The position numbers and the translations under genes were made by a program. From positions 1 to 36,716 of IMG/VR virus record IMGVR_UViG_3300042691_006708: 36,716 nucleotides of DNA. The stretch is one strand, 5' to 3'. Of the stretch, positions 23,137 to 36,037 are shown in pieces; the first letter of the stretch is position 1, and each line of letters begins with the position of its first letter. The notes under the pieces were generated by a model. That model ran no database searches. It had not been told where the DNA came from and worked only from the letters and a program-made list of their open reading frames with translations. This stretch comes from a virus.

Positions 23137-23973
23137 TTAAGCTTCGGTTGCTTGTACTACTGTTGATGTAATGCTGTCTGCACCGCCAGTAGTCGATACT
23201 GTTAACTTGTAATAATTGCCGTCGACAACTGATACGTTGGCAATTGTTAATATGTTGGTAGTTGCACCGCTGTTTCCACTAGCATTACTTACAGCAATGT
23301 ATGCAATATTATCAGTTGATACGAACCACTGGTATGATAATGTTGCACCCGTTGGATCAGATTGTGCAGCTGTAGTAAATACTACGGAATTACCTGCAGT
23401 AGCACTTTGATTTGTTGGCTGAGTCAAGAAATACAATCTGTAATCTGCAACAATTGTATCATCATTTGCATCTAACAGATTCAGAGTTCCACCAGCATTC
23501 GCATTGAAGTTCTTCGACATCGCAACTAAAACTTCAGATATATTTCTGGTTCCGCCCTGGCTTGTACCATGTGTTCTATAATGAACCCAACCGGTATGTC
23601 CAATGCCTCTATTCTTATTCTCAGTTACAGTAATCTCTGTACGATCCACACCGTAAACATTTCTAGCATTTACAGTATTGGCACCGGTGTTAACATTACC
23701 CCAACCATAAGTTGTTAGATCTTTCGGCGATTGCTGAATGTAATATACTAATGCTGTAGAGTTTGATGCTTCGTACGGCACATCTAACGTGATAACAGTG
23801 TTTGAAACTATATTAGCTATCTTGTAACCAACGTTAGCTATGAATATAGTATCGCCTTTTCTAACATTAGCTTCTTCAAAATTTGTACTATCTGCAGTTA
23901 TAGTATAACTACCTAAATTAGCGGTCAATGCTCCCGCTAAAGGTATATTATCTCTTTTTCCCCATTGAGACAT
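23137..23973 (-). CDS. Virion structural protein with C-terminal Ig-like domain
   Basis: 278 aa. The start MSQWGKRDNIPLAGALTA and the segment GHTGWVHYRTHGTSQGG...SEVLVAMSKNFN resemble a conserved T4-like cyanophage virion protein. Residues about 180-278 form an immunoglobulin-like domain (LTQPTNQSATAGNSVVF, then LSYQWFVSTDN, then DGNYYKLTVSTTGG), a type often displayed on phage surfaces that binds carbohydrate weakly. Its ATG shares one base with the stop of the preceding gene (TAATG), with AAAGGAG as ribosome binding site, so the two are translationally coupled. Confidence 0.8.
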   Translation of the reverse strand: MSQWGKRDNIPLAGALTANLGSYTITADSTNFEEANVRKGDTIFIANVGYKIANIVSNTVITLDVPYEASNSTALVYYIQQSPKDLTTYGWGNVNTGANTVNARNVYGVDRTEITVTENKNRGIGHTGWVHYRTHGTSQGGTRNISEVLVAMSKNFNANAGGTLNLLDANDDTIVADYRLYFLTQPTNQSATAGNSVVFTTAAQSDPTGATLSYQWFVSTDNIAYIAVSNASGNSGATTNILTIANVSVVDGNYYKLTVSTTGGADSITSTVVQATEA

Positions 23974-24938
23974 TATTCTTCTCCTTTGATTAATGATCCA
24001 TGATGAACGTATCTCTTCAATACTTCAGATTCATTTACAGTATACTCAACACACGGTGCGTCATCAATGTAGGATACTTCTATATCTGATACCTCAAAAC
24101 CTTTTGCTTTGAATTCTTGAACAACAGGAGCATACAGAGACTTGATCTGATGTTCAACAATAATTGAGATATCTTCGTCTTTGAAGAATGATTCTGCTAC
24201 AAGTACTGCATCGTCATCATTCTCGACATATGATCTAGCTGCTGATAAGAAATCCTTGAAGGAAACATTCTCTGGAAGCACAATTTCAAAATCATCATGC
24301 TTGACGATTGTTTCTTCTCTAACTTTCCTTCTTCCTTTACCGCGAGTCTTACCTTCTTCTGAAGATGGTTTATCCTCAGTCTCTGAACCACTTGGACCAC
24401 GGTAGCCATAGTCTTGCTTGCTTCTTCTCTGACCAGGTTTAGATTCTTTTGGGAAAGCTTTCTCATACTCAGGAGTACCAGGAAACATTTTACCTGCTTC
24501 TTCTAGCTCAGCTTCTTCCTTTGTCAGGCGATCAACTGCGCGACCAATTCCTTTATTGACTTTCTTTTTATATTTGCCAATTGCTTTAGAACCCATTGGA
24601 CCATCGTCATAAGGTGTCATTTGATAATTGGTTTCAATGGCAGGAAGTTGTTTAGTTCTTTTCTTAATATACTTACCTAACATTTGTTTACCGGCAGGAG
24701 TATCACCAATCTCATCGAGTTGTTCTACTTCATCTTGCTCAGTTTCTTCATTATGCTTTCTTGTAGCAGCATGAGCCTGAGCATGAGATTGTCCCCCAGC
24801 TTTACGACGCTTCATCATATAATCTGCGGCATCCTGGTCGCCGTCACCATCTTCGTCGTGTTTTAATTTTTCATCGAGTTGTTCCGAAGTAGTTATCTTT
24901 TGAATTTCCTCGAATAAACTTTGAGTAATACGCTTCAT
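23973..24938 (-). CDS. Charged, partly disordered phage protein with possible capsid-targeting N-terminus
   Basis: 321 aa, function not recognised. The N-terminus MKRITQSLFEE loosely resembles the other capsid-targeting-like starts in this cluster. Residues about 27-40 contain DEDGDGDQDAAD, an acidic DxDxD motif like those of calcium-binding loops. Residues 60-210 are rich in K, E, G and S and are probably disordered. The last 100 residues (FEIVLPENVSFKDFLSAARSY onwards) look like a folded alpha/beta domain. A late octamer variant, AATAAATA, lies 26 bp upstream, and AGAGGAAAA is the ribosome binding site. A head-internal or scaffold-like role is a guess from composition and neighbours. Confidence 0.7.
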   Translation of the reverse strand: MKRITQSLFEEIQKITTSEQLDEKLKHDEDGDGDQDAADYMMKRRKAGGQSHAQAHAATRKHNEETEQDEVEQLDEIGDTPAGKQMLGKYIKKRTKQLPAIETNYQMTPYDDGPMGSKAIGKYKKKVNKGIGRAVDRLTKEEAELEEAGKMFPGTPEYEKAFPKESKPGQRRSKQDYGYRGPSGSETEDKPSSEEGKTRGKGRRKVREETIVKHDDFEIVLPENVSFKDFLSAARSYVENDDDAVLVAESFFKDEDISIIVEHQIKSLYAPVVQEFKAKGFEVSDIEVSYIDDAPCVEYTVNESEVLKRYVHHGSLIKGEE

Positions 24939-24963
24939 AGTTTTCCTCTTTTAGATTATTGAA

Positions 24964-24971
24964 TATTTATT
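24964..24971 (-). promoter_or_regulatory. Late promoter octamer variant AATAAATA
   Basis: The minus strand reads AATAAATA, one base from the TATAAATA consensus, 26 bp upstream of the ATG at 24938. Position and spacing match the perfect octamers elsewhere in the window. Confidence 0.5.
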
Positions 24972-24976
24972 ATGCC

Positions 24977-25492
24977 TTACCAAGCCTTACAGGACCAGTA
25001 TCTTGCCTTAGTTTTTGGCCCAGGGTTATCGCAATTATGCCTTGCCCTGAAACTTTTTCTCCTGCTTGGTATATGTTTCTTTATTGTCATACTCTTATCA
25101 CCGAAGTTAACCTTCTGCGCCTTACCATCACCGTCTGGATCAACAAACACCTTTGATTTCTTCACATCGCCTGCCATAGGTTTATTTAAAGGAACCGTTT
25201 TACCTTTATATGTTGCCTCATCTAATCTCTGTCTAAATTCTGAAAATTTCATTCCGGCATCCTCATTCCTATAACCAACCTTGGCCAAAGATCTTTTTGT
25301 CTGCCGAGCGATAGATCTCTGAGTTGCAGCAAAAGGATCTTGAATTTTCTTTTTAGTTACGCTATATCCCATTTCTCTTTGTTGACCAGACAAAGGGCTT
25401 TTGCTAGTTTTATATCCTAGTTTACTGATTTGCCTCTTATTGTAAGAGATATCTGTACTTTTAATAACTGGTCTTGTTATGCTTTCTTTCAT
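24977..25492 (-). CDS. Basic two-part phage protein with RARHNC...YWSC C-terminus
   Basis: 171 aa. The first 80 residues are Lys/Arg-rich and probably disordered. The second part begins at an internal methionine (residue about 81, MKFSEFRQRLDEA), which itself looks like a capsid-targeting start. It continues with KVFVDPDGDGKAQKVNFGD and ends with FRARHNCDNPGPKTKARYWSCKAW-like residues. That C-terminus is a conserved tail found in small proteins of many T4-like phages. Its ATG overlaps the stop of the upstream gene by 4 bp (ATGA), which supports the long start. The protein may be a fusion of two small proteins. Function unknown; a head-packaged protein is plausible. Confidence 0.75.
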   Translation of the reverse strand: MKESITRPVIKSTDISYNKRQISKLGYKTSKSPLSGQQREMGYSVTKKKIQDPFAATQRSIARQTKRSLAKVGYRNEDAGMKFSEFRQRLDEATYKGKTVPLNKPMAGDVKKSKVFVDPDGDGKAQKVNFGDKSMTIKKHIPSRRKSFRARHNCDNPGPKTKARYWSCKAW

Positions 25493-25959
25493 TTGGCACC
25501 CGATAATCTTGTTCTCTCAAGTTCTCTTATCTTTGGCATCAATCTAGTAGGTAAATTTTTATATACTTTTAAAATTCTTTTTGCTCTGATCTCGATCATA
25601 TTTTTTTCTGCAGCAGATAACTTTGTTTTATCTCTGTTTCTTAATAATTTTTTTGTTATTAATTTACGAGCTGCAACTTGAGATCTTCTTTTTAAAACAC
25701 CTAAAGGTGATGTTCTTTTTAATTTAACTTTTCTCTGCATAGCAAGTATCATCTTTCTTGCTTTCATTCTCTGTCCTCGTTTCATTCTCTCAACTGCAGA
25801 TATTCCCTCTTTTAACTCTTCATTTTCAAACTCATCGTCATCATATAAATCTTCAATATCATCCCATGTAAGAGAATCAACCATAGAATTAAGTTCTTCC
25901 TCTGTTATCTCAGGAAGTTCTTTTTCTTCAGTGATATAATTTTTAAATCCGTACATCAT
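25489..25959 (-). CDS. Small basic phage protein with WDDI motif and capsid-targeting-like start
   Basis: About 156 aa from the ATG at 25959 (or 155 aa from the next ATG), 1 bp after the stop of the nucleotidyltransferase gene. A longer in-frame ATG would start inside that gene. The N-terminus MYGFKNYITEE matches the pattern of the T4 internal-protein targeting sequence. An acidic stretch (EELNSMVDSLTWDDIEDLYDDDEF) follows, and then about 100 residues very rich in Arg and Lys (KRRSQVAARKLITKKLLRNRD). Proteins with this layout are conserved next to virion genes in T4-like cyanophages and pelagiphages. The basic part suggests DNA contact inside the head. No enzymatic motif. Confidence 0.8.
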   Translation of the reverse strand: MMYGFKNYITEEKELPEITEEELNSMVDSLTWDDIEDLYDDDEFENEELKEGISAVERMKRGQRMKARKMILAMQRKVKLKRTSPLGVLKRRSQVAARKLITKKLLRNRDKTKLSAAEKNMIEIRAKRILKVYKNLPTRLMPKIRELERTRLSGAK

Positions 25960-25960
25960 T

Positions 25961-27256
25961 TTAATCTGTCTCTGGGCGAACAGTAGAAGCATCTTTGCGT
26001 ATATCTACGCCTGCCTTTTCTATACTATCGCGATCTTTCTTATATTCATTTGCTATACGTTCTACTTCACCTTGCATAAATGTTTTAAATGAAACCATGC
26101 CAACAGGTTTTCCATTAACAGTTTGATTATCACAAGTTTTGTCTATCCCCATTGTCACTTCTTTAGAAGGATTGAAGTTAATATCTCTTTCTTTATACAT
26201 TTCTTTTAGTTCCTTATAGCTTATTTTAGCAGTACCCAATTTTTCTTCTATCTGTTTCTTAGACATTAATAGAACAGGGATCTGGGAGCTAGACATCTTA
26301 TTTCTTATAATGGGGACAGAGGGAGCATTTTCTTGTAGTTGTTTTATATCTTTTAACCAAATCTTTTTCGTATCGCTATTTTCTAACTGTATAGTAACGT
26401 ATGTTGCTCCCCTATAAACTATCTTTCCTGCATATCCGGTAGTTGTTTCAACTAAGTCATTCAATTTATATTTCTCTCCCGATAGATATGCTTCTCTTAT
26501 AGATACACACATACCTTTTTCTTTAGACCACACTTCACCTATACCGCACTCGGTTTTCATACTGGGAGTCATTTTTTTCATATATTCTGTTCCTTCAGGA
26601 GTTCCCCAATCGAAGCGATAGGGGTTTTCATAATCTTCATTTACTGATCTAATATGATCTGCAATTTCTTTTGCTTGAGGTTTTAATACTTCAGGAAGTC
26701 CAGATTTAAATTTAGACATGTTGCCTTTTCTAGCATGTTCTCTCATCTTTGTGCCAGACATTCCCTCTACTCCCTCCGCATCAGGATCTCTTTGTCCTGC
26801 GGAAATAACCTTAATAGATTTAAAGTTGTAATATCCGTGATCCTTGCCCTTTACACCATTATAAGTATTTAAATCTCTTTGATACTGTTCTACTCTATCA
26901 CTTCCAGCAACTACAACCAAATGAGAATGTCCTGCGTTATGCAACCTAGTAGCAGCGTGAAATATTTTCGGTTCTTGTTTCGAAGAACCGGATATGTTCA
27001 CCTTACCATTTGCTATTGATCTAAGATATCCAATCTTTTTATCTTGAGGTAAAGGATCTTTCATTGTTCCTTGGCTATGAGAAGCAACCACATGCGCTTC
27101 TCCACCGTGTTCCCTTGCTACATCATGCACCCTTTGTAAGAGTTTTTCATGACCTACAGTTGGGGGATTAAATCTACCAAAGGCCATTACTGCCGTCGTT
27201 TCCTCCGGAGCCTCGGTAGATTTTTTCTTCTCTGAAATATACTTTCTGAAATCCAT
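25961..27256 (-). CDS. NMNAT/cytidylyltransferase-like nucleotidyltransferase with capsid-targeting-like start
   Basis: 431 aa. Residues about 22-180 form a HIGH-superfamily nucleotidyltransferase domain: GRFNPPTVGHEKLL (27-40) holds the T/HxGH nucleotide-binding motif, VVVAGSDR (114-121) is the mid-domain strand, and MSGTKMR (166-172) corresponds to the ISSTxxR motif. Such domains transfer AMP or CMP, as in nicotinamide-mononucleotide adenylyltransferase. Residues 235-431 hold a small SH3-like stretch (YKLNDLVETTTGYAGKIVY) and an unrecognised C-terminal domain. The N-terminus MDFRKYISEK fits the capsid-targeting pattern. A perfect late octamer lies 30 bp upstream. The substrate cannot be told from sequence. 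Confidence 0.8.
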   Translation of the reverse strand: MDFRKYISEKKKSTEAPEETTAVMAFGRFNPPTVGHEKLLQRVHDVAREHGGEAHVVASHSQGTMKDPLPQDKKIGYLRSIANGKVNISGSSKQEPKIFHAATRLHNAGHSHLVVVAGSDRVEQYQRDLNTYNGVKGKDHGYYNFKSIKVISAGQRDPDAEGVEGMSGTKMREHARKGNMSKFKSGLPEVLKPQAKEIADHIRSVNEDYENPYRFDWGTPEGTEYMKKMTPSMKTECGIGEVWSKEKGMCVSIREAYLSGEKYKLNDLVETTTGYAGKIVYRGATYVTIQLENSDTKKIWLKDIKQLQENAPSVPIIRNKMSSSQIPVLLMSKKQIEEKLGTAKISYKELKEMYKERDINFNPSKEVTMGIDKTCDNQTVNGKPVGMVSFKTFMQGEVERIANEYKKDRDSIEKAGVDIRKDASTVRPETD

Positions 27257-27285
27257 TAGAATATAGTTTTAAATTGGCAACGTAT

Positions 27286-27293
27286 TATTTATA
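27286..27293 (-). promoter_or_regulatory. T4-type late promoter octamer TATAAATA
   Basis: Exact TATAAATA on the minus strand, 29 bp upstream of the ATG at 27256, in the 53-bp gap after the 528-aa structural gene. Confidence 0.75.
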
Positions 27294-27309
27294 ATATTTG
27301 ATTATTTGG

Positions 27310-28890
27310 TTATAGAGCTGCTTCAGTTACTGCTATCTGAATCGAAGGTATTCCGGGTGCACCGTCAAATACGGCAGGTGAATCTATAGAAAGGGAAGTA
27401 TCAGTTACTGTAAAATGCACCGAAACATTATCTGATGCATCCATAGAAACAAGTTGGAAATTTGTAATTGTTCGATATCCCCCATTTTCTGAAACACTCT
27501 GTCTTACTGCGGAATATGGTATATTAACTCCGTTCTTCTTATACCAAACAATAATTGATTTCGAACTAGAACTTGAAGAAGTAATTTGTACCCTAGTCTG
27601 AAACTTATATAGACCGGAATCTAGGGCAACAATACTATTCCCAGCTATCGTAAATCCGCTCGCTATGAGTACATTACTTATAGTCACCTTCACATCCTGG
27701 TTTGGGGCAGGAGCAATTTGGGGGAAAACACTATAAAAATCACCATATCTCAATCTGGGCCATAATGTGGGGCGAACCAACATTATACCGCTGGTAGAAT
27801 TGGCATTTAATACTGCAGCAACGGATACTGCAATATTTGGTGCAGTAGGTTTAACCTTTGTTAATGTGCCCGGTTGGTTGGGATTGGACCATAATATATC
27901 TCCCAATTGCCATGTCTCGCCGACGGATGCCCCTGTAGTATCAATATCTCTTATCTCACCTAGTAACTTTGCCCTACCGATAGTATTGGCTTCAGTATCT
28001 GTTGCTAATACTCCTATTGAATATAAAGGTAAGGCATTTGCATTATTAACAAAGGGAGCACAGGTTACAACATCTTCAACTGCACCGGAGAACTGAACAA
28101 AGGTTCCTTTAGTTAGATTCGCGCCATAATTATTATACACTCGAATATAATTGTCTTGACCAGTATAGGTTGCTGCACCATCCGCATGTATTATCTCAAG
28201 TGTGTCTTCTCTAGAATCATAGTATGTCAATCCTGCTTGTCTAGGTGCATTATCATAGATATCCTGAGTAGGATTGTATAACATTGACTCAATTGGGCCC
28301 TGATTGCCGCTTAACTGCCCAAAAAAGAAAGTGCCATATCTACCAGCAATATTACTTGGACGGTATCTCAGTATCTGATCAGTATTGCCTATAGTATTCT
28401 TTTCTATATCATCCAGATACTTAAACTTAACTTCCCCCGAACCTTGTCCGGCCATAGATATCTTAGATACCCATTGTTCAAGGAACTGTAGTTTCTTTTG
28501 AATCGCAGTTATATCTGGTGAAGTTACCGGTGCCTCCGGTTGCTGATAACTATCTTCTTTGATAGATTTAGAAATAAAATCTACAGCTTCTTTCTGTATA
28601 TCTCTTTCTTCTACCTTCTGAATGTCTTGTTCAGTTTCTTCGATCAAAGACATAACATCATCAAGTGAAGGAGGCAGGGGATATTCTATAAGATTCGTTT
28701 TCTTTTCTTCTTCCTTAGCCTTTTTAAATGCTTCGGATAAGACTTCAAAAGAATTTTTCTTTATAGACTTAATAGCATTGAGTTTAATCTCATTAATCGC
28801 GGTAACTTCGTTGGATATAGATTCATCTACATCCTGACCAAAAGCTTTGGCAAAGTTAACCAAAAGTTGTTTTTCTTTAATATTTTTCAT
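27310..28890 (-). CDS. Structural protein with coiled-coil N-terminus and C1q-like C-terminal domain
   Basis: About 526 aa from the ATG at 28890; a TTG two codons upstream is also possible, and no clear ribosome binding site separates them. The first 170 residues are charged and helical (AFKKAKEEEKK, EETEQDIQKVEERDIQKE), probably coiled coil. Next is EVKFKYLDDIEKNTIGNTDQILRY, which recurs in cyanophage structural proteins. A beta-rich middle (residues about 190-385) follows. The last 140 residues resemble a C1q/TNF jelly roll (SGLYKFQTRVQI, IIVWYKKNG, VSMDASDNVSVHF). It may be a neck or whisker fibre. It does not carry the capsid-targeting start of its neighbours. Assignment is by resemblance. 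Confidence 0.75.
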   Translation of the reverse strand: MKNIKEKQLLVNFAKAFGQDVDESISNEVTAINEIKLNAIKSIKKNSFEVLSEAFKKAKEEEKKTNLIEYPLPPSLDDVMSLIEETEQDIQKVEERDIQKEAVDFISKSIKEDSYQQPEAPVTSPDITAIQKKLQFLEQWVSKISMAGQGSGEVKFKYLDDIEKNTIGNTDQILRYRPSNIAGRYGTFFFGQLSGNQGPIESMLYNPTQDIYDNAPRQAGLTYYDSREDTLEIIHADGAATYTGQDNYIRVYNNYGANLTKGTFVQFSGAVEDVVTCAPFVNNANALPLYSIGVLATDTEANTIGRAKLLGEIRDIDTTGASVGETWQLGDILWSNPNQPGTLTKVKPTAPNIAVSVAAVLNANSTSGIMLVRPTLWPRLRYGDFYSVFPQIAPAPNQDVKVTISNVLIASGFTIAGNSIVALDSGLYKFQTRVQITSSSSSSKSIIVWYKKNGVNIPYSAVRQSVSENGGYRTITNFQLVSMDASDNVSVHFTVTDTSLSIDSPAVFDGAPGIPSIQIAVTEAAL

Positions 28891-28948
28891 TGACAAACAA
28901 TAGACAAGGTGTTAGTATTTGCTATGTGACCTAGGTGATATAAGGATT

Positions 28949-30112
28949 TCACTTATTAAGATTCATTCCAGAAAATCCTTCTTTAGATCTATTTACCACC
29001 TTAGAAACAGAACCATCTTTATAACCAACAACGAATCCCTCGGGTTTAGTTACTTTACCTTCAATGGTATGTTCTTGATTTTGACCCGACATCTCTAAAC
29101 GATCTAAAAGAACATTCTTGGCATTATCTAAAGATTTATGAGCAGAAAATAATTTTCTGAACTCATCCTTCTCTTCATCCACATGGTTTACCATACCTTC
29201 TAGATGCGTTAGCTTTCTCTGCTTAGCTTCGGGTGTTTTTACCTTATCTACTTCCTTATTTAATCTATCAAATAAGTGTTTACGGTAACCTTCAGGGTTA
29301 GGCGAGACTCCATCTCTTACCGTTTTGTTTATGTATGTCTGTAAATGCTCAGAGTGTCCTTCAACCAATCCATCATGGTCTCTAAGAGAAGATAGTTTTT
29401 CTTTTGCGTCATCTAAATGTTTTTGAAATTCCGAATGATGTTCTTCTCTATAATTTACATTCTGTCTATTAAATTTATTATTGAAGATATGTACATCTGG
29501 ATGGTCATGAAACTTATCAGTATCGATATTGTACTCTCTATCCTCACCATCTATTTTAGTATGTAATGCAATACTTATCTTAGACCCTGCTAATTTTTTA
29601 CCTTCGTCTGTATCATGGGGTATGGCATACTGTATTAATTGTTCTTTAGTATTTACTCTATTTCCGTCTTTCCAAATTGTACCATCTTTTTTACTTCCCA
29701 TGAAATCGCCTTGAACAACTCCATGTATTGGAGACATTACTTTGCCGCCATGCTCAACCAATTGAGATATCTTACTATGTAGTCCGGGCTTATCTCCAAA
29801 GTTTTCATCCACATCTTTTTGATTAAACATATAACCTTTGGTGGCACCTTTATATGCTACACCAAATTCTTTTTCACCTGTGTTTGGATTTATAACATGA
29901 CCCATTTGAAAGGCAGGCGAACCATCAGCCTTTATACCTATCCTCGACACATTTGAATTTTCACTCTTTAAATAACTGTGCAGACCGTCTAAACGATCTA
30001 GATCTGCCTCTGCTCTATCTTTACCGTAGAAATGTTCTTCACCCGCCAGGTGTGTCAGGTGTTTTATTGCTTGACCTTTTTCTTCAGTTAAGTAGGTTAG
30101 AAATGTTTTCAC
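28949..30112 (-). CDS. KxDG ligase/nucleotidyltransferase-fold protein with capsid-targeting-like start
   Basis: 387 aa, starting at GTG 30112 (MKTFLTYLTEE), with AGGA 9 bases upstream and a 29-bp overlap with the preceding gene. IKADGSPAF (K61-x-D63-G64) is the motif I lysine signature of the covalent nucleotidyltransferase superfamily (RNA/DNA ligases, capping enzymes). GVVQGDFMG, EGFVVGYKDG (motif IV-like) and SKVVNR (motif V-like) agree. Related cyanophage proteins with KWDGAP motifs are known but uncharacterised. The middle of the protein is Lys/Glu/His-rich helical. It may join or cap nucleic acid after injection; no substrate can be named. The N-terminus matches the T4 IPIII capsid-targeting sequence well. 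Confidence 0.75.
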   Translation of the reverse strand: MKTFLTYLTEEKGQAIKHLTHLAGEEHFYGKDRAEADLDRLDGLHSYLKSENSNVSRIGIKADGSPAFQMGHVINPNTGEKEFGVAYKGATKGYMFNQKDVDENFGDKPGLHSKISQLVEHGGKVMSPIHGVVQGDFMGSKKDGTIWKDGNRVNTKEQLIQYAIPHDTDEGKKLAGSKISIALHTKIDGEDREYNIDTDKFHDHPDVHIFNNKFNRQNVNYREEHHSEFQKHLDDAKEKLSSLRDHDGLVEGHSEHLQTYINKTVRDGVSPNPEGYRKHLFDRLNKEVDKVKTPEAKQRKLTHLEGMVNHVDEEKDEFRKLFSAHKSLDNAKNVLLDRLEMSGQNQEHTIEGKVTKPEGFVVGYKDGSVSKVVNRSKEGFSGMNLNK

Positions 30113-31286
30113 TTAATGTTTTCCTATGGCTATCTAGTAATTTTTTAACTTCGGCGGCATGATCTTCATTTGTGACATCTCGATGTAACTCAGGTTGATC
30201 TACAGATAAATTAGCATACGTTCTCATAGTTGGTTCATGCGGTCTGTGTATAACTTGTGTTTTACCCGAATCAGTGTTTGCTATCTGTATTTTACCATCT
30301 AATCTATCAATGTCTCTATTTGTTAGATGTCCCAAGGTTGTTTTACCTATCAGCGGATTATCATCGCCTATGGTAAAAGTAGTTCCTTTATCTGTTTTAC
30401 CATTATGTATATGTAATGCATTAATTTCACTTGAGCCTAAGTATGCTCTAGCCATACCTCGGGGAGATGGTATAGTTATAGTTTTATTAATTTTACCTTT
30501 TGAATGTTTTTCATTTAAGTACTGTAGTAGAGGCATTCCATCTACTTTAACTTTTGCAAAATGTTTACCTAATTTTGCACTTGTTAATTCCCATTTACCT
30601 GTTTTTTGATTAAAATTACAAGCAGATTGCCCCATCTTACCGCGCTCCAATTTTGATTCACCTTGAAGTCTTGTAAATGGAGTTTCTATTTGCTCTTCAG
30701 TTTCTTCTCCCGAAACTTCTTTTATCTTACCTTGTAATCTTTTATCTTTAGTTGCTTTGCCTGTTCCTGGTTCTTGATGTGATACAAAATCATATGCAGT
30801 CCCAGTTGATCCGGCAGCTTTAGTTCCAAAATTCTTAGCAATAACTTCTTCTACCTTAAACCCTTTATCAAACGCAGACTTAGCTAATCCTGAAGGAACA
30901 CCTAACTTAGATTGAGGGATGTCACCATGTTGTTTTGTTTTTATAAAGATTTTACCCTGGTCATCATGATATGCTCCTGTTGCAGTTACTGTAGTACCAG
31001 CAGCATGCGCACCATATTTGGAAGTTAAAGTATGCGTGGGTTTATTAGGTTTAGCAGGATCATATGCTGAACCATGTTCTTTGTCAAAATCACCAGGATT
31101 TAAATGTCTTGCAAATGCGGCTAATACTGATCTTTTTTGAGTTTTAGATAGGGTAGGTATAACATAGTTTCTTAAATGTCTTAGGCCTTTCTTTTCACTA
31201 TCATTAATACTGCCCACCATACTTGAGCCTGCAGCTTCAGTTAGAAAACCAAAATCTTCTGCGAGGAATTCTTTAAATTCTTTCAT
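30084..31286 (-). CDS. PD-(D/E)XK nuclease-like protein with capsid-targeting-like start
   Basis: 400 aa from the ATG at 31286 (MKEFKEFLAEDFGF). A longer in-frame reading would cross the terminator and late promoter upstream, so I reject it. The first ten residues are almost those of the T4 internal protein III targeting sequence (MKTYQEFIAE). Residues 142-220 carry a pattern of the PD-(D/E)XK nuclease fold: E147 in a helix (GFKVEEVIAKNFG), D166 in GTAYDF, E210-S-K212 in QGESKLERGKMGQ and Q220. The C-terminal half is beta-rich and unassigned. A perfect late octamer lies 30 bp upstream. If packaged and injected it could attack host or competitor DNA. The nuclease call rests on motif reading only. 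Confidence 0.7.
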   Translation of the reverse strand: MKEFKEFLAEDFGFLTEAAGSSMVGSINDSEKKGLRHLRNYVIPTLSKTQKRSVLAAFARHLNPGDFDKEHGSAYDPAKPNKPTHTLTSKYGAHAAGTTVTATGAYHDDQGKIFIKTKQHGDIPQSKLGVPSGLAKSAFDKGFKVEEVIAKNFGTKAAGSTGTAYDFVSHQEPGTGKATKDKRLQGKIKEVSGEETEEQIETPFTRLQGESKLERGKMGQSACNFNQKTGKWELTSAKLGKHFAKVKVDGMPLLQYLNEKHSKGKINKTITIPSPRGMARAYLGSSEINALHIHNGKTDKGTTFTIGDDNPLIGKTTLGHLTNRDIDRLDGKIQIANTDSGKTQVIHRPHEPTMRTYANLSVDQPELHRDVTNEDHAAEVKKLLDSHRKTLSENISNLLN

Positions 31287-31315: not shown

Positions 31316-31323
31316 TATTTATA
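31316..31323 (-). promoter_or_regulatory. T4-type late promoter octamer TATAAATA
   Basis: Exact TATAAATA on the minus strand, 29 bp upstream of the ATG at 31286. It comes directly after the terminator at 31338-31361, so it starts the late block. Confidence 0.8.
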
Positions 31324-31337
31324 TACTGTGCAAACAT

Positions 31338-31361
31338 AAAAAAAGAGCGCCTAAGCGCTCT
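31338..31361 (-). terminator. Rho-independent terminator after the HNH gene
   Basis: Minus strand reads AGAGCGC-TTAG-GCGCTCT followed by seven T. The 7-bp stem is perfect, GC-rich and has a 4-base loop. It lies 18 bp after the stop of the HNH gene at 31379 and separates the sigma70-type block from the late block. Confidence 0.9.
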
Positions 31362-33083: not shown

Positions 33084-33160
33084 TGGTACCCCGGGAGGGA
33101 CTTGAACCCCCGACCTGTCGATTATGAGTCGATTGCTACTAACCACTGAGCTACCGGGGC
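33084..33160 (-). tRNA. tRNA-Met(CAT), CCA encoded
   Basis: Full cloverleaf on the minus strand. Acceptor GCCCCGG pairs with CCGGGGT (G-U closing pair). The D arm is GCT/AGC, the anticodon loop CTCATAA with anticodon CAT, and the T arm GGGGG-TTCAAGT-CCCTC. Discriminator A and CCA are encoded. The anticodon stem starts with an A-C mismatch. It looks like an elongator Met tRNA; an Ile2 tRNA with a lysidine-modified CAU cannot be excluded. A consensus sigma70 promoter lies directly upstream. Confidence 0.9.
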
Positions 33161-35358: not shown

Positions 35359-35446
35359 TGGTGCGGAAGGCGGGATTCGAACCCGCAGTGTTTCTTATGT
35401 GCAAGATTTTAAGTCTTGTGCGTTTCACCTATTTCGCCACTTCCGC
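35359..35446 (-). tRNA. tRNA-Leu(TAA), CCA encoded
   Basis: Class II cloverleaf on the minus strand: acceptor GCGGAAG with CTTCCGC, D arm GCG/CGC, anticodon arm CAAGA-CTTAAAA-TCTTG with anticodon TAA, a 15-base variable region, T arm GCGGG-TTCGAAT-CCCGC, discriminator A and encoded CCA. It reads UUA, a codon favoured in this AT-rich genome and rare in GC-richer hosts. Its 5' end overlaps the last 22 bases of the HNH gene. Confidence 0.93.
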
Positions 35447-35941: not shown

Positions 35942-36037
35942 TGGTACTCCCAGTAGGATTCGAACCTACATCATCCCCTCATCTAGAGGCATCGCCAAGG
36001 TATAAGCTTGGAGCATTAACCGTTATGCTATGGGAGC
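35942..36037 (-). tRNA. Class II tRNA with anticodon TAT, CCA encoded (isotype uncertain; reads AUA)
   Basis: Minus-strand cloverleaf of 93 nt plus CCA. Acceptor GCTCCCA pairs with TGGGAGT (G-U first pair). The D arm is GCAT-AACGGTTA-ATGC, the anticodon arm CCAAG-CTTATAC-CTTGG giving anticodon TAT, and the T arm GTAGG-TTCGAAT-CCTAC. The anticodon reads AUA, an Ile codon. The 25-base variable region with a CCTC/GAGG stem is typical of Leu, Ser or Tyr tRNAs, not Ile. It begins 7 bp after the stop of the BI-1 gene. Confidence 0.85.

Follow-up and report, generated by a model that had tools for sequence, protein, structure and literature searches.

A candidate capsid-targeting leader on otherwise unrelated proteins of a late gene cassette in a T4-like phage fragment

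Why should several otherwise unrelated proteins of one phage begin with nearly the same ten residues? The question is raised by a gene cassette in the IMG/VR record IMGVR_UViG_3300042691_006708, a 36.7-kb T4-like phage fragment that was analysed over its whole length (36,716 nt, the entire record; hereafter the window). Four genes of this cassette encode proteins whose N-termini resemble the leader of the T4 internal proteins, and we consider it likely, with a probability of about 0.82, that the cassette, which belongs to a Kyanoviridae-like T4-like phage, encodes cargo tagged with a capsid-targeting sequence (CTS); the products would enter the prohead, be cleaved behind the Glu by a gp21-type protease and leave the head with the DNA. 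The tag recurs on unrelated enzymes of related phages, and most of the tagged proteins of one published virion proteome were detected in purified particles; a ready-made set of enzymes is therefore probably injected together with the phage DNA. In the proposed course of events, the cassette genes would be transcribed late, the leader would bind the scaffold core of the prohead, the gp21-type (S77) protease would cut after the Glu of [FY]-[IL]-x-E, and the mature enzymes would remain among the packaged DNA, enter the host with it and act ahead of any phage gene expression. Of this course, the binding to the core, the cleavage, the placement inside the head and the injection are inferred, as are the host targets.

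The leader and the genes that carry it

The genes of the window are nearly all encoded on the minus strand, with fibres and glycosyltransferases followed by the region of interest. In descending coordinates, the cassette is composed of a first cargo gene (slot 1), a DUF6267 gene, a fibre-like gene (27310..28896), a cytidyltransferase gene, a short gene at 25489 to 25956, and the genes at 24977, 23973 and 23137, the last of which encodes a head protein. The slot 1 gene (30084..31286, 400 aa) starts at ATG 31286 with the leader MKEFKEFLAE (codons 31257..31286). The DUF6267 gene (28949..30112, 387 aa), whose product is a candidate ligase-like nucleotidyltransferase, has a GTG start preceded by AGGAAA and encodes the leader MKTFLTYLTE (30083..30112). 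The third cargo gene (25961..27256, 431 aa) encodes a cytidyltransferase/NMNAT-like protein with the leader MDFRKYISE (27230..27256), and the fourth (25489..25956, 155 aa) encodes a protein with the leader MYGFKNYITE (25927..25956), an acidic N-terminal part and a strongly basic remainder; its start is 25956, or 25959 with an extra Met. A preliminary description of this DNA had pointed to these four leaders, and they were confirmed in the genes that it named, at the starts 31286, 30112, 27256 and 25956. It had also called the genes adjacent, which is right in that they are neighbours in one cassette; they are not strictly contiguous, because the leaderless fibre-like gene lies between them.

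The four window leaders share the consensus M-x(1-2)-[FY]-x-x-[FY]-[IL]-x-E. Both IPII and IPIII start with MKTYQEFIAE in the T4 record, and the window leaders agree with IPIII at positions 4, 7, 8 and 10, the cytidyltransferase leader being one residue shorter with unchanged spacing. Mutagenesis of IPIII assigned residues 4 and 7 to targeting and residues 8 and 10 to processing (review PMC9026906), and these are the positions that were fixed in our search pattern, ^M.{0,4}[FYLIW]..[FYW][ILVM].E. The pattern matched only four of the 29 window open reading frames (ORFs), every match lying inside the cassette. Calculated from the own composition of each protein, the chance of a match per start was 0.0004-0.002, so that about 0.01 start would be expected in the eight cassette genes, and the probability of at least four matches in eight was 9e-11. 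The pattern was composed with the four hits in view and this value is after the fact; therefore independent tests in relatives were sought, which weigh more. A control scan of T4 with the same pattern returned ipII, ipIII, gene 61.1 and one match in the 61.4 region. T4 gp61.1 (NC_000866 18966-19130, L219), which starts with the leader-like MKTFKEFIKEDMVAG and adjoins the primase gene 61, is a candidate for an additional T4 internal protein.

Two weaker leaders proposed in the preliminary description were dropped. The stretch MKFSEFRQRLDE of the 24977 gene lies about 80 residues inside the ORF, and a leader was found there in neither of two homologues. MKRITQSLFEE of the 23973 gene has no leader counterpart in five homologues; those inspected read FEE/FDS there or start differently. 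In the 24977-25492 gene, the HVA1-type domain is preceded at residues ~89-95 by RLDE/A (DMSE/A in L005 and LEE/A in L025), which may be an internal prohead-protease site and not a start.

Leader and cargo in relatives and other phages

IMG/VR relatives were found via DUF6267 and include two long contigs, G001 (222 kb) and G002 (190 kb). The leader is clustered in both: it was present on five of nine cassette genes against four of 272 other ORFs in G001 (p=1e-6), and on three of 11 cassette genes against three of 258 other ORFs in G002 (p=0.001). Counted over ten cassettes, the leader was present on DUF6267 in 10/10, on the cytidyltransferase in 8/9, on the 25489 family in 4/6 and on slot 1 in 2/2 cases, and on none of 17 homologues of the neighbouring fibre, HVA1-type, 23973 and head-protein genes. 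The tail-fibre-like protein inside the cassette (27310..28896, minus strand, phrog_30742) carries no leader in the window or in six homologues (0/6) and is not cargo by the leader criterion. The N-terminal region of this protein (MKxIKEKxLL) is kept and its C-terminal part varies (L015, L017, L020, L022, L025), as in a modular protein with swapped ends.

In 11 DUF6267 proteins, which are 52-72% identical to that of the window, F4, L8 and E10 are invariant, and the leader is followed by a linker variable in length and sequence. The homologues of slot 1 (L009 and L010, 60%) start with MINSFKAFLKE, and unrelated slot 1 families are also tagged, with MTINPFKIFLVEQ and MITSFKSFLIE. Other non-homologous genes that occupy cassette slots in the relatives are tagged as well; they encode a HAD protein (MKTFKAYLEE/MISFKEYLTE) that matches phrog_415, 'polynucleotide kinase' (E=9e-10), a DUF6321 protein (MINFKSYLKE) and a metallopeptidase-like protein with an HELVH motif (MKRFSSFIKE). 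Two small ORFs with MxSFxS[YF][VM](E/D)K (L012:8798-9031 and L021:5450-5770) lie directly upstream of a leaderless slot 1 gene, perhaps as a split leader. A 65-aa gene of G001 and G002 starting with MYNQYILEAK fits the pattern, is distant from the head genes and showed no cargo evidence; it was set aside.

Leaders were also read in other phages. DUF6267 starts with MMLDFKNFITE in phage C48C1 and with MMKFTQFLAE in Stenotrophomonas phage DLP6, the cytidyltransferase of S-WAM1 starts with MRFRQFIIEAA, and Melnitz carries leaders on a RimK-like ATP-grasp protein, gene 15 and DUF6267. The leader of the Melnitz ATP-grasp protein (L002:82-1131) is TTG-initiated, MTQKFSQFITEE, and this protein could modify host proteins after being injected. 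P-HM2, tried as a positive cyanophage example, failed: neither its DUF6267 nor its cytidyltransferase is tagged, its cassette genes are leaderless, and its three weak matches are scattered. DUF6267 of S-PM2 and S-CAM1 has no leader either.

A DNA pattern for MKTFKxF[aliphatic/F]xExxK and its scrambled counterpart MKFTKx[..]xFExxK were run over IMG/VR, and 113 stretches matched the tag pattern against none for the scrambled one. Among the 80 matched loci that were read, the match opens an ORF of at least 50 aa in 74, falling into 24 loose similarity groups. One family (L080:1723-2589 and relatives, MKTFKQFIFES) is ADP-ribosyltransferase-like (PF03496, E=5e-4, below the Pfam cut-off) and might be Alt-like cargo, another group has its PHROG matches in families annotated as virion structural and internal head protein, and the locus L131 encodes a cyanophage-type DUF6267. 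The S77 protease was found in seven of 27 scan-hit records, many of which are fragments. These counts bear on the simplest alternative, a chance likeness of short Lys/Phe-rich N-termini in AT-rich genomes coupled with contamination behind the mass spectrometry (MS) detections in virions described below. The motif is indeed short and isolated false matches do occur, as in P-HM2 and once, undetected by MS, in S-CREM2; the scrambled control, the clustering in G001 and the retention of the leader residues next to a variable linker nevertheless make such a coincidence extremely improbable.

Virion proteomes, protease and late expression

Two published cyanophage proteomes contain homologues of the tagged proteins. 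Sullivan et al. (2010, PMC3037559) detected the cytidyltransferase T4-GC190 by MS in purified S-SM1 virions; the S-SM1 protein starts with MKKFSAFLNE (MKKFSAFLNEAERS), and that of Syn9 is also leader-bearing (MKKFSAFLSEAER). The S-CREM2 virion proteome (PMC10665884) comprises 52 proteins, including an unexplained SAM hydrolase, an APH/ChoK-like kinase, a cytidylyltransferase and a Cas9-like nuclease. The N-termini of the first three are MKDFDSFLEE, MKRFDAFLTEE and MKNFSSFLTEA, respectively, and the virion-detected hypothetical protein gp13 starts with MKDLHSFLTEQ. Across the S-CREM2 genome, MS had detected the products of four of five leader genes, compared with 46 of the 207 other genes (Fisher p=0.012), and the detection outcome had played no part in pattern building. 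No targeting signal is mentioned in the sections of PMC10665884 and PMC3037559 used here. The virion-detected Cas9-like nuclease gp12 of S-CREM2 (L199:4205-6814) shows F-A-S-F-M-A-E-A from residue 19, a displaced leader, and its annotated start may be wrong. EST35_0202 of PA5oct (L195:1501-2103) is a structural protein confirmed by MS and a homologue of a leader family that lies beside the terminase gene. It starts with MKSFRDYYDA, lacks the Glu and was left out of the supporting evidence; conceivably, it is targeted without being cleaved.

Whole-virion MS is silent on location, and in the window the cassette adjoins fibre and head-decoration genes, both of which would suit a tag that sends proteins to a part of the virion outside the head (tail, neck or baseplate), or an amphipathic N-terminal helix that anchors them at the host membrane. 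The residue spacing is, however, that of the head-targeting signal of T4 IPIII and ends in a prohead-protease-type site, and a Glu that is not needed for anchoring is invariant at position 10 of the 11 DUF6267 proteins, so that we regard either destination as highly improbable. The proposal of the preliminary description, that a short N-terminus shared by otherwise unrelated proteins is a packaging signal marking a candidate injected set, is supported by the retention of the leader while the gene behind it changes, its clustering in G001, its strong over-representation at ORF starts against the scrambled control, the S77 protease in both long relatives and the leader-bearing homologues in published virions.

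A gp21-type S77 protease and gp23 are present in both G001 and G002, and the protease also occurs in S-CREM2, S-SM1, Syn9 and DLP6. The search for further starts and a gp21-type protease, suggested earlier, yielded both in the two long relatives and neither in the window, where no further start was found among the 29 ORFs. In the two relatives, a candidate site is present close to the N-terminus of gp21 (YLVE/A) and at about residue 50-60 of gp23 (LFE or LTE/A type). These sites resemble those of the leaders, many of which have Ala after the Glu in the relatives. In T4, one protease processes the scaffold core proteins and the internal proteins alike, and the 25489 product resembles many core and internal proteins in being small and mostly basic. 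Together with the gp21 and gp23 sites, this would fit tagged proteins that are components of the prohead core (scaffold), recruited for head assembly and without function in the newly infected cell. Of scaffold parts one would expect conservation, whereas the identity of the cargo varies freely among relatives; at least two of the four tagged proteins are members of enzyme families whose catalytic motifs are conserved, and elsewhere the leader is carried by a SAM hydrolase, a kinase and the ADP-ribosyltransferase-like protein. A purely structural role is therefore improbable, and delivery of the cargo into the host is preferred.

The T4-type late promoter motif TATAAATA was found on the minus strand at 31316..31323, 30 nt upstream of the slot 1 start, and at 27286..27293, 30 nt upstream of the cytidyltransferase start, and both positions are shared with G001 and G002. 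All five TATAAATA motifs of the window are on the coding strand, and the motifs lie mostly on the coding strand across the window, G001 and G002; their total count in the window is not above chance. The placement of the motifs supports late transcription of the cassette, as the term 'late proteins' in the preliminary description had implied. A terminator-like hairpin, GAGCGC-TTAG-GCGCTC followed by T7, was read in the sequence at 31338..31360 (minus strand), upstream of the cassette and between it and the upstream endonuclease gene. An alternative slot 1 start, TTG 31400, is cut off from ATG 31286 by this hairpin and the late promoter, and ATG 31286 is favoured because the hairpin separates the cassette from the upstream gene.

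Putative functions of the cargo and known systems

What would such proteins do in a new host? The DUF6267 protein matches PF19782 over its full length (E=5e-49); the DUF6267 family, which corresponds to phrog_455, is present in 470 phage records. No function is recorded for PF19782 or phrog_455, and the ligase-type reading was made in this analysis. Across 14 sequences with identities as low as 27%, KxDG(x)P, EGxV and KxVxR recur in the succession expected for motifs I, IV and V of ligases, with K61xD63G64, E358G359xV361 and K371xV373xR375 as invariant residues. In a structure model with a predicted local distance difference test score (pLDDT) of 84, the best VIA-align rows were RNA ligases (Naegleria ligase Z 8.0, T4 Rnl1 6.8 and Rnl2 6.1, TbREL1 within Z 6-8). 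A hidden Markov model search against solved structures returned nothing meaningful for DUF6267. From motifs and model, DUF6267 is probably a ligase-type (RNA/DNA) covalent nucleotidyltransferase. The 25961 protein matches phrog_3041 (E=8e-54) and, below the cut-off, PF01467; its motifs GRFNPPTVGH and MSGTKMR are of the (T/H)xGH and ISxTxxR types, by which it is an NMNAT/cytidyltransferase-type enzyme. For 30084, PHROG and Pfam searches gave no family match and the structure model (pLDDT 38) is unusable; a PD-(D/E)XK nuclease was considered for it, and other slot 1 families align on D[IL]...GxSxK. Two of the three enzyme-like folds announced earlier were thereby recovered, 30084 being the third candidate. 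Because DUF6267 is ligase-like and 25961 is of NMNAT/cytidyltransferase type, the payload probably acts, as infection begins, on nucleic acids, on nucleotide cofactors or on both. If the HAD phosphatase of some relatives is included, nucleic-acid repair, or alternatively the rebuilding of NAD, is a possible theme.

Several points weigh against head-loaded, injected enzymes. The S77/gp21-type protease gene is absent from the 36.7-kb window, because the window is a fragment. The virion MS comes from homologues and not from the phage of the window or its closest relatives, the S-CREM2 test includes only five leader genes, and the S-CREM2 authors caution that abundant proteins may co-purify with virions (PMC10665884). 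The 25489 leader is degenerate in two of six homologues (L012 and L017). Homologues in some cyanophages (P-HM2, S-PM2, S-CAM1) are leaderless, and therefore the enzymes can exist without the leader and do not depend on it in every lineage. The ligase call for DUF6267 is based on motifs and on Z of at most 8, a range common for unrelated folds, and the Foldseek top row, T4 Rnl1, had only E=0.17.

T4 Alt is an injected ADP-ribosyltransferase processed by the prohead protease. The likeness is that of a head-carried enzyme delivered with the DNA, as proposed here, and one IMG/VR leader family is ADP-ribosyltransferase-like; the window differs in that no Alt homologue is among its annotated ORFs and its enzymes belong to other families. 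The T-even internal proteins share only the leader and are injected (PMC12373910, PMC3012670), and T4 Ip1-3 inhibit GmrSD type IV restriction (PMC12373910). The window resembles T4 IPI, IPII and IPIII in that several otherwise unrelated proteins of one phage begin with a leader that shares the key positions and includes a protease-type site, the gp21-type protease being found here in close relatives. In contrast to the small inhibitors of T4, the cargo is longer and enzyme-like (in relatives also a HAD phosphatase and a peptidase-like protein), and the lineage is Kyanoviridae-like instead of Tevenvirinae. The cyanophage virion proteins of S-CREM2 and S-SM1 (T4-GC190) are also comparable and share the cytidyltransferase family, the presence in virions and the leader type; in S-CREM2, several cargos are located far from the cytidyltransferase locus. 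A partial literature search found no paper naming MKTYQEFIAE or a cyanophage CTS, which is weak evidence of novelty. The principle is known in T-even phages; what appears to be new is its occurrence in this lineage, with cargo that is enzymatic and exchangeable, and the agreement with virion proteomics that had been unexplained.

If the tag works as proposed, the metabolic enzymes of cyanophage virions would become a testable rule, by which the first ten residues predict the proteins that enter the host with the DNA, and many hypothetical proteins of abundant aquatic phages could then be listed for function discovery. The internal-protein strategy of T4, so far tied to Alt and small inhibitors of restriction, would also widen to enzymes, the ligase-like DUF6267 being an example. 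A wider picture, tentative and in our opinion unlikely to hold as a whole, is that a universal modular head-loading tag delivers an exchangeable enzyme kit in environmental T4-like phages; here it would be a pre-loaded set for nucleic-acid repair or cofactor rebuilding (RNA-ligase-like DUF6267, NMNAT/cytidyltransferase and the polynucleotide-kinase-type HAD phosphatase of relatives) that would undo host defences by nucleases or NAD depletion ahead of any phage gene expression.

Some neighbouring genes may be added. Between the cytidyltransferase and the 25489 homologue, four relatives encode a leaderless protein that looks Dps/ferritin-like by eye (L010:13176-13616, L012:13732-14169, L017:15710-16147 and L025:18096-18527), a gene absent from the window. 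The head protein at 23137-23973 (phrog_613) has a C-terminal immunoglobulin-like domain (PF07679). Three tRNA genes lie beside the cassette, tRNA-Met (33084-33160), tRNA-Leu(TAA) (35359-35446) and tRNA-Ile(TAT) (35942-36037).

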